DNA from: Baffinella frigidus
Lineage: Eukaryota; Cryptophyceae; Cryptomonadales; Baffinellaceae
Direction of reading: 5' to 3'
Assembly (NCBI GenBank): GCA_026770585.1
Contig: MU646303.1
Location: forward strand, 1,164,117 to 1,190,254
DNA: 26,138 bases
Both the position numbers and the translations under genes were made by a program. The notes below the pieces were generated by a model that worked only from the letters and a program-made list of their open reading frames with translations, searched no databases and was not told the DNA's origin. This document shows, in pieces, positions 20,099 through 25,742 of this stretch. Positions within the stretch are counted from its first letter, which is position 1; the number at the start of each line of letters is the position of its first letter.

Positions 20099-23000
20099 GT
20101 ACGGCCCCCAACCCCTTTCACACATGCAGTTGAGGGTATTCCCGGAAGTAAACGATGGTATCCCTCGGAGCAAGGGTGGCCGACCTAACTCCGGCGTCAA
20201 CCTACTTACGGCATTCCCTATCACCCTACCGTACTGCATACAGTACAGTAGGACCCTACGGAATGCCGTAATTAATTTTGACTCCGGAATTAGATCGCCC
20301 ACCCTTATATAACCTCTAGCCGGTTTCATTTCGTAAGTCATAAATGGAGGTTACCGGTATTCTGCTGAATTTCACCCCTAAATTTCATCCTTTTTGAAAT
20401 CTGAAAGCGCAGATCCTCGAGATTTGGCCTTCAGCTCCAGAATCTGCTAAAAAAATTCGAGCTGCGATGAAATCTTGAGATCTTTACTACAGGCCAAAGG
20501 TCGTATAAATGGCTCCAACTAAAGGGATTATATTCCTATAAAACCGGCTAGAGGATATCCCTCGGAACAACTGGGGCGCACGGGCAGGGTGCTGGCGCAG
20601 ACGGTAGTGTCGCGTGCGTGCGGCAGTAACCGAGGGTATTTACGGCAGTGCACGATGGTTTTCTCAAAGTGTCCTAACGGTCCTAGGAGTACATCCCTCG
20701 AGTTAACTGAGCCCTTGTCATTCTGAGCCGTTAACTTCTCAGACCTTGTCATTCTGAGCCCTCAACATTCTGGGCAGGGTGAGGGCACGGTCGGTAGCAT
20801 TCCTTCAAGGAAATATCGTTTCGTGGCGTCTCGCAGGGGTGCTCCGGACGCACCTTACCAATTTTCCAAAACAGTTTTAAAGGGGATGTAAAACCGCACC
20901 GGTCCGCAATTACTGGTACAACTCTGAGTTACTGGCGCCAATCTCGTGCAGGGTTCGGGCGCAGACAGTAGCGTTCCGCGCGCGGGGGAACATCGTGGCG
21001 CGGCGGCTCGCGGGGGTGCTGCGGACGCACCTCGCTTTCTGGCGGGAGGTTAGCGGCGCCGTGGCCAGGTTGTGAACCCCTTCCGTACGGTTGTTGACTG
21101 ACCCCCCGTCCCCGCTCAAAGACAGCCTCCGTTTAAAAAATGCACGGCGGCTATGGTGGCATCCACAAAGGTTTGTATCTGGGCGCCTAGACCCTTAACC
21201 CTTAAGCCCAAACCCTCAACTCTAAACCCTAGACCCTGAACCCTAAACCCTAAACCCTAAACCCTAAATCCTGAACCCTGAACGTTAAACCCTAAACCCT
21301 AAATCCTTAACCCTAAGCCCTAAGCCCTAAGCCCTAAACCCTAAACCCTGAACCCTAAACCCTAAACCCTAAACCATACACCATAAACCCTAAACCCTAA
21401 ATCCTAAACCCTGACCCCTCAACCCTAAACCCTAAACCCTAAACCCTAAACCCTAAACCCGAAACCCGAAACCCGAAATCCGAAACCCGAAACCAGAAAC
21501 ACGGAACCCTCAACCCGAAACCCTCAACCAGATTGCGAAACGACGGGGTGAATGTCATGGAACGGTGGCTGCTGCGGGCTTTGAAACAGAACCTTTCCGC
21601 CTGGAGGGACCAGGTCACATGCCATTCAGTAGCCACCGTTGTCCTCCCCCCCCGGATCTCCGGGCGAGATTCGCTGACATTTGGCGTGTTTACCGGTTGA
21701 GAATCAACTTGGGAGAGATTCCCGAAGTCACCGGTGCCTGCGGAGTGGACAACCAAGACTTGGTTAGGAATCCGTAGGACAACCCTATGTTCTTACGGTA
21801 TTGCCTACCGTGGGGACGGTATTGCCTACCGCAGGATCCTATGGATTATTCACTGAGGGGTATTCACGAAATCCCTTCGTAGCCCTGCGGGTGATGCAGC
21901 ACACTATTTGTAAGTGTGTTGTAGCGTCACGACCTTTTTGGTACTGAGGGTTGTCACGTTCCCTCCGGAATAACCGGGGTGGTGCCCATGCGGGTCCGTG
22001 TGAAGACCTAGTCCAAGACGAGCCCGCCTCGGGCCATTAGGTCGACTGAAATTGGGGTAAGCTCCTACACGGGCTACACGGGGATAGTTCCGCTGCACGC
22101 AGGGCCTTCACGGCCAGCCTCACAGTGAGGACATTGCGCCATGCAGCTTTTATCTCCCCCAGAGGTTTTGCGTGACTCAGGTGCGGGGGCTTGTGAGAAG
22201 ACCTGTCCCCCGTGTATAGCTGCGCCGCGAGCGCGCAGAAGCGCTACATCCGCCGTCATAGTTTCGGTGTTATGTTTTAGAGCTCGTTGGGATTTGGCAA
22301 GCAAGATTTAGGGTTCAGGGTTTAGGTTTTAGGGTTTAGGGTTCAGGGTTTCAGGTTTCAGGTTTAGGGTTTAAGGTTTAGGGTTTAGGGTTTAGGGTTT
22401 AGGGTTTAAGGCAGTTATCAGCGCCCTCCTTGGCCTCAAAGTCGCGGGCCGCTTTAGGATTCAACCTAGACCCTAAACTCTAAACTTTAAACCATAGACC
22501 CTAAACTCTAAACCTTGCTCCCCGGCCATCAGGTCACGCATCAAAAAGTGGTGCGCCAGTACGAGGCAACCGCGCCGGTGCCCCCCCTCCTCCCCCCTCA
22601 CCGCCACTCACCCTCTCCCTCACCGTCACCCACCCTCGCCCCCACTCCTCGAACCTCCAACCCACCCTTCCCAGCTCTGCCTGATCCGGTGGGCGCTGGG
22701 TAACACGACACAAACATGTTGCGGCGGAAAGTTTTTCCAGAAAGTGGTGCGAAAAGTGATGGTAACAGCGCCGGTGCATACCCACTCCTCCAACCTTTTT
22801 CTTCTTCATCACTCTCAATCCTGGAGACGCGTGATCCAAAAAGTCTCTGATCCTCAAGACGAGCCCGCCTCGGTATATAGGCAGTCACAGCGCCGGTGTG
22901 TACCCCTTCCTGTAACCCACTCATCCTCCACATCCCTCCCCCTGATGTACACCAACTACAGCCCTACCTCCAACACACTCCTCCTCAAACCACACAACAT

Positions 23001-25742: not shown

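Follow-up and report, generated by a model that had tools for sequence, protein, structure and literature searches.

Short local tandem duplications as the probable source of partial exon copies in gene regions of the cryptophyte Baffinella frigidus

Several described systems resemble the exon copies reported here. In the AGGT model of Rogers and Hellsten, it is purely exonic DNA containing AGGT that is reportedly duplicated. In the potato RdRp gene, a tandem duplication crossing an intron-exon boundary gave rise to a new intron, and another tandem duplication of 83 bp occurs in the first intron of the gene (Ma, Lan and Niu 2016; PMC4974935). In Exonize, a survey of 20 annotated genomes, exon duplications are classed as partial, inter-boundary, or intronic (PMC12343006). 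CST-guided Pol alpha-primase is described as a source of small tandem duplications at DNA breaks (PMC8355091). The published genome of Baffinella sp. CCMP2293 was assembled from Illumina reads with AllPathsLG and amounts to 534.5 Mb, of which 41.1% are repeats (PMC9756366). Among the matches listed from open-licence PMC papers, no paper on such exon copies in cryptophytes was found.

The copies described below, hereafter echoes, occur in a stretch of 26,138 nucleotides of the Baffinella frigidus genome (the window; positions 1164117-1190254 of contig MU646303.1) and in further loci of the same assembly, which comprises 382 Mb in 1364 contigs. We take them, with good confidence, for what is left of short tandem duplications that arose locally in the gene regions of this cryptophyte. 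As in the potato RdRp event (PMC4974935), the duplicated unit covers an intron tail and an exon head in direct tandem copies, the formerly exonic piece of the upstream copy turns intronic, and the AG and its tract are inherited from the parent intron. The potato case, however, is one event in one gene, documented by genome and RNA reads, whereas Baffinella offers many events at both exon ends, with putative new splice sites. The phenomenon is real and ordinary in kind, and its basic event is already known from the potato gene; the first-pass annotation, which knew of no named description, had missed the boundary-crossing tandem duplication that makes a new intron, as described in the same paper. 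Two features retain their interest: certain loci are densely populated with echoes, and the exon pieces are conserved beyond expectation. Exon copies located in introns are likewise found in the Exonize classes, which outnumber full-exon duplications; an order rule is seen in Baffinella, whereas none is given in the excerpts of that survey (PMC12343006). Short direct tandem copies are also the products of CST-guided Pol alpha-primase (PMC8355091), and the likeness to Baffinella lies in the product.

The genome sample comprised 29 stretches of 10 kb, mostly N, with 118,369 readable bases including the window's 25,530. The main set of 19 exons consisted of 14 exons of three genes outside the window and five exons of the window's Sfi1-like gene, and 1 kb on each side of every exon was searched with other exons masked, thresholds taken from shuffles, and misses counted. 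The three outside genes, which we presume to be a PDI-like gene in locus L030 and CCA-adding-like and ERI1-like genes in locus L029, are named on our own assumption, as Pfam shows domains only: the joined exons match Thioredoxin_6 (64 bits, cut-off 27), PolyA_pol (113 bits, cut-off 23), and RNase_T (58 bits, cut-off 24), respectively. This set omits CCA-adding exon 1, the ERI1-like exon with which L029 ends, and a PDI piece whose AG is unclear. Both loci were chosen since their pairs resembled protein exons, and the echo rates are therefore not genome estimates. A second set of 52 exons was predicted ab initio by a small codon and splice-site model; it includes the 10443 and 13659 pairs of the window and repeats some L029/L030 pairs, is not independent of the 19-exon set, and may contain wrong-strand exons or echoes themselves. 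Because its exon finder overlaps just 10 of the 19 known exons, it serves as supporting evidence.

The features of the window are collected in Table 1. The gene whose exons 1 to 5 lie between 19849 and 25704 is one that we take, by eye, to be Sfi1-like; the joined exons matched no Pfam family at E 0.5 and no PDB chain at E 10. No annotated protein for this gene emerged at E 1 when 7994 candidates, of a length limited by the query, were scored.

Table 1. Exons, echoes and other local copies in the window
Feature	Position	Strand	Remarks
Echo of exon head at 6878	6643..6684	+	AG lost; 93% over 42 bases
Matching head of intact copy	6878..6919	+	
141-bp tandem repeat, two copies	10219..10498	-	Intron tail and exon
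Downstream copy of minus-strand pair	13407..13493	-	
Upstream copy of minus-strand pair	13604..13690	-	Possibly itself the intact exon
Sfi1-like exon 1	19849..20090	+	Echo-free; open frame bounded by AG and GT
Exon 2 echo, weak	20581..20618	+	Acceptor side; exon bases up to 33 of 97; score 37 (threshold 36), 50 (shuffled maximum 41)
Exon 2 echo	20774..20855	+	Acceptor side; first 81 of 97 exon bases, 74% alike; AG kept
Sfi1-like exon 2, intact copy	20952..21048	+	
Further predicted exon (IERMAGTGRRALDAWREKTEQ)	23432..23494	+	Echo-free
Exon 3 echo	24263..24331	+	Acceptor side; first 64 of 95 bases; AG kept; 90% over 69 bases
Sfi1-like exon 3, intact copy	24492..24586	+	End placed by analyst at AG/GC, without GT
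Exon 4 echo, first	24933..24986	+	Acceptor side; first 41 of 99 bases; AG kept
Exon 4 echo, second	25001..25057	+	AG changed to AC
Sfi1-like exon 4, intact copy	25093..25191	+	
Intron part of duplicated unit, copy 1	25343..25407	+	83% to 25544-25608
Exon 5 copy	25420..25490	+	Entire exon if exon 5 ends at 25704; 96% over 71 bases
Intron part of duplicated unit, copy 2	25544..25608	+	83% to 25343-25407
Sfi1-like exon 5, intact copy	25641..25704	+	

Direct local copies were present at all nine places where the first-pass annotation had listed echoes, eight of them well above shuffled controls. In the Sfi1-like gene, local alignment scores (against the best of 300 shuffles) were 82 against 30 for 20778/20952, 106 against 28 for 24946/25093, 78 against 30 for 25016/25093, and 205 against 33 for 25425/25641, with just 50 against 41 for the marginal 20588/20952; the exon-flank search gave 24268/24492 a score of 103, the shuffle-derived threshold being 36. 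On the same scale of 300 shuffles, the remaining pairs scored 72 against 32 (6641/6872), 186 against 30 (13659/13462), and 218 against 34 (10443/10302). The last of these had been offered with a 'perhaps' and is a 141-bp head-to-tail tandem repeat. The 13659/13462 pair also stands, but its assignment as echo and exon is less certain: in an ab initio exon scan, the copy at 13659 is part of a longer open exon on the minus strand (13607-13868), and the intact member could be this upstream copy. The view that every echo is truncated held except for 25425, which spans the entire exon provided that exon 5 is taken to stop at its GT (25704). A genome search with one echo (25420-25497) returned two matches, both local, with no introner-like spread. 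Also within the window, a run of 608 N lies at 12676-13283, near the minus-strand copies at 13407-13690. An open reading frame at 16612-17586 (plus strand) is long and carries tandem repeats with a 114-base period; its best match is a Baffinella frigidus hypothetical protein (99% identity over 97% of the query), and its relatives include many hypothetical proteins of Baffinella, with PF26188 present in the majority of the relatives. The exon end at 24586 is followed by GC instead of GT, as are the ends of CCA-adding exons 3 and 6 (L029, minus strand), which suggests either that GC serves as the donor or that the donor was lost next to a repeat insertion.

Echoes recur elsewhere in the genome, as had been anticipated, with local exon copies in the PDI-like, CCA-adding-like, and ERI1-like loci. 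In the main set, 13 of the 19 exons had a local copy and six had none in their 1 kb flanks. Partial upstream copies were all acceptor-side (11/11) and downstream copies all donor-side (12/12), an association of position and side with a Fisher value of 7e-7 by copy and of 9e-5 with one copy per exon and side; in each of the 23 partial copies the truncated end faces the intact copy. The 24th copy is whole and lies upstream. Tandem exon duplication with both splice sites, as for mutually exclusive exons, does not describe these copies, of which one in 24 is whole. PDI exons B, D, F, and G have acceptor-side and donor-side copies at once. Copy offsets are 68-510 bases, and no exon copies were detected in 48 windows located 2-4 kb away. 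Among the 52 ab initio exons, 14 had a copy; eight copies were upstream and acceptor-side, seven downstream and donor-side, one upstream and donor-side, two internal, and two whole (of 20 copies), with none inverted. The lone upstream donor-side case lies in L025, where both members resemble copies of a third exon.

A short tandem duplication forces this order, which is why upstream copies are acceptor-side and downstream copies donor-side. If the duplicated segment ran from an intron into the next exon, the upstream copy would consist of the intron tail, the AG, and the exon head, and the downstream exon would stay whole; if it ran from inside an exon into the next intron, the downstream copy would consist of the exon tail and the GT. 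Such segments may have been produced by break repair or by replication error. Partial copies, in which one splice site is missing, would be skipped and could survive, whereas complete extra exons with both splice sites would be spliced into mRNA and removed by selection; the intron parts would later lose their likeness through insertions and deletions. Tandem duplication had already been put forward in the first-pass annotation, and it accords with direct, local copies that obey the order rule. A nearby exon piece might instead have been copied as templated filler into a break elsewhere, and many pairs do look like short patches with unrelated spacer. Patch insertion of this kind would, however, permit any part of the exon, on either side and in both orientations, whereas all 23 partial copies are in tandem order and none of the 19 exons has an inverted copy within 1 kb; we hold it to be very unlikely.

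It had further been proposed that the process is directed, with breakpoints landing time and again at the acceptor end of exons. Within the window the acceptor-side polarity is indeed seen: all six copies in the Sfi1-like gene lie upstream, five of them acceptor-side (one marginal) and one whole. The window cases, however, come mostly from one gene and were picked by that very pattern, and the polarity does not extend to the genome sample. When acceptor-side and donor-side copies were counted in the sample of 19 exons, the 14 exons outside the window gave six acceptor-side copies, all upstream, and 12 donor-side copies, all downstream, with five exons copy-free; there is no acceptor excess (6/18 copies, p 0.24; 6/13 exon sides, p 1.0), and both exon sides are affected. 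The polarity is geometry and not breakpoint bias, because order alone decides which side appears, and a directed acceptor-side process can be given next to no credence. A striking one-sided pattern can therefore arise from order alone. The AG or GT is kept in most copies, so decoy splice sites are present as sequence. Another upstream acceptor-side copy, in which the AG has been lost (AC), occurs at L011:1149-1196 and 1362-1409, with differences spread across all codon positions.

Assembly artefacts, in which a second haplotype or a contig overlap is set in tandem, also have to be weighed. The published Baffinella sp. CCMP2293 genome is a short-read AllPathsLG assembly (PMC9756366), and pairs with conserved exons and divergent introns would resemble two alleles. 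On the other hand, at least three copies are found at window exons 2 and 4, at PDI exons B, D, F, and G, and at ERI1-like exon A, which disfavours a second haplotype as the main cause; in addition, copy identities are 74-98%, the copies tested have no N between them, and an artefact gives no reason for the order rule. Such an origin appears highly improbable.

If the duplicated unit extends into the intron, a partner of the flanking intron sequence is expected at a predictable place. Such a partner, scoring above all of 200 shuffles, was found in 14 of 26 junction tests, which omit the short PDI exon E copy; it was present at 6/15 upstream and 8/11 downstream junctions. At PDI exon F, 68 intron bases are repeated at 99%, and at 13659 and 10443 the partner is 74% alike over 104 bases and 85% over 60 bases, respectively. 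Among the 14, the partner at ERI1-like exon C (15 bases) is weak, and those at ERI1-like exon B and, by eye, PDI exon G downstream consist of simple or repeated sequence. The Baffinella events are like the Rogers/Hellsten model in that tandem duplication puts exon sequence into an intron, but unlike it in that the units include intron wherever the partner is visible. AGGT is present, by eye, in both exon 3 copies of the window. In the other 12 tests nothing passes at the predicted place, and the missing partners are the weak point of a simple tandem account; insertions, such as the inverted-repeat element seen by eye between PDI exon B copies, may explain part of them. The wrong side passes in seven of the 26 tests; four of these passes are to be expected, as the exons concerned (PDI exon B in two tests, PDI exon D, and ERI1-like exon A) form arrays. 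In the PDI-like gene (L030:4535-5160), an array was also noted by eye in which the tail of exon B is fused to the following coding piece and repeated several times with intron between, that coding piece having no visible preceding AG.

Exon parts of echoes often outlast the adjoining intron. When the 20 intron bases that precede the final five were compared without gaps, nine of 15 upstream copies agreed at 9/20 positions or fewer (one recovers after a gap), while the exon part is 74-98% alike. Substitutions between echo and intact exon numbered 23, 29, and 88 at codon positions 1, 2, and 3 in 25 pairs, so that 88/140 (63%) are at third positions; the count covers 25 of 27 copies, with the copy of PDI exon E and one of those of PDI exon B omitted. 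The counts are 7, 14, and 43 in the window (third 43/64) and 16, 15, and 45 elsewhere (third 45/76). When an echo dead since birth was simulated alongside an exon under constraint, 45-52% fell at position 3, and the excess over it has p 1.6e-5 to 0.006 overall, 0.0003 to 0.01 in the window, and 0.009 to 0.13 elsewhere. This suggests past or present constraint, or conversion, in some of the echoes; selection on the echoes, an earlier time as working exons, or conversion from the exon could each produce such an excess, to which base composition may add.

The same counts bear on the idea that most echoes are real alternative or repeat-encoding exons under coding selection, whose apparent truncation is the exon's own end. 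The third-position shares in the window and elsewhere fit it, as does the likeness that often falls at the AG, and the whole-exon copy 25425/25641 differs in its exon part by three synonymous changes and no others. Nevertheless, 23 of 24 copies fail to reach the end of the exon on the side of the intact copy, a single domain is encoded in frame when ERI1-like exons A, B, and C are joined and the echoes skipped, and two listed copies, 25016 and 6641, have lost their AG (a single loss had been reported earlier). We judge it unlikely that most echoes are such exons, and prefer duplication remnants. From 15 exon-side events, 9.1 whole copies would be expected and one is seen (p 0.001), with PDI exon F upstream entered as 135 where the measured offset is 270 after an apparent later insertion; without units longer than 300 bases, the expectation is 4.3 against one (p 0.07). 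These figures are only a hint that whole-exon copies are depleted relative to partial ones. A bold idea, to which we assign quite a low probability, is that selection maintains the half-exons with their splice sites, or conversion restores them, while the surrounding intron is lost, so that introns of this alga would contain banks of half-exons whose live decoy sites shape splicing. If the density seen in these loci holds genome-wide, Baffinella would serve as a natural test case for how short tandem duplication creates introns and decoy splice sites, with many events of varied likeness at both exon ends in one genome, and it would become testable whether exon definition filters the duplications that survive.

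With regard to non-exon DNA, 130-base segments from the same loci had a direct local copy in 26/67 cases, compared with 11/19 exons under the same masking (p 0.19), so local direct duplication extends beyond exons. By locus, non-exon segments and exons with a direct copy were 21/31 and 5/6 in L030, 0/2 and 3/8 in L029, and 5/34 and 3/5 in the window (p 0.049), and within the window exons may be richer in local copies than non-exon DNA, which tells slightly against the present reading. The readable 118,369 bases hold 73 direct pairs of at least 40 bases, in which a mod-3 survey detected no codon-like rhythm overall (z 1.1). Among local pairs at large, 54 were inverted and 75 direct in 91,188 bases, and inverted local copies occurred in 9/67 non-exon segments; some inverted pairs are, by eye, short inverted-repeat elements. 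Several such elements around 'gaaaattactacac' were noted by eye in L016 near 1301, 7012, and 8490, possibly a small non-autonomous transposon family.

Telomere-like filler at break ends was considered and rejected, as telomere-like sequence lies within 40 bases at 7/26 junctions and at 24% of random positions. Telomere-like heptamers (CCCTAAA and close variants) are nevertheless oriented, with the C-rich strand mostly the sense strand of genes: sense and antisense counts are 63 v 14 at window 19849-25760 (plus strand), 29 v 0 at 9000-14300 (minus), 77 v 12 in L029 (minus), and 17 v 2 in L030 (plus). As an idea only, these heptamers may supply pyrimidine tracts and the branch-like CTAAAC.
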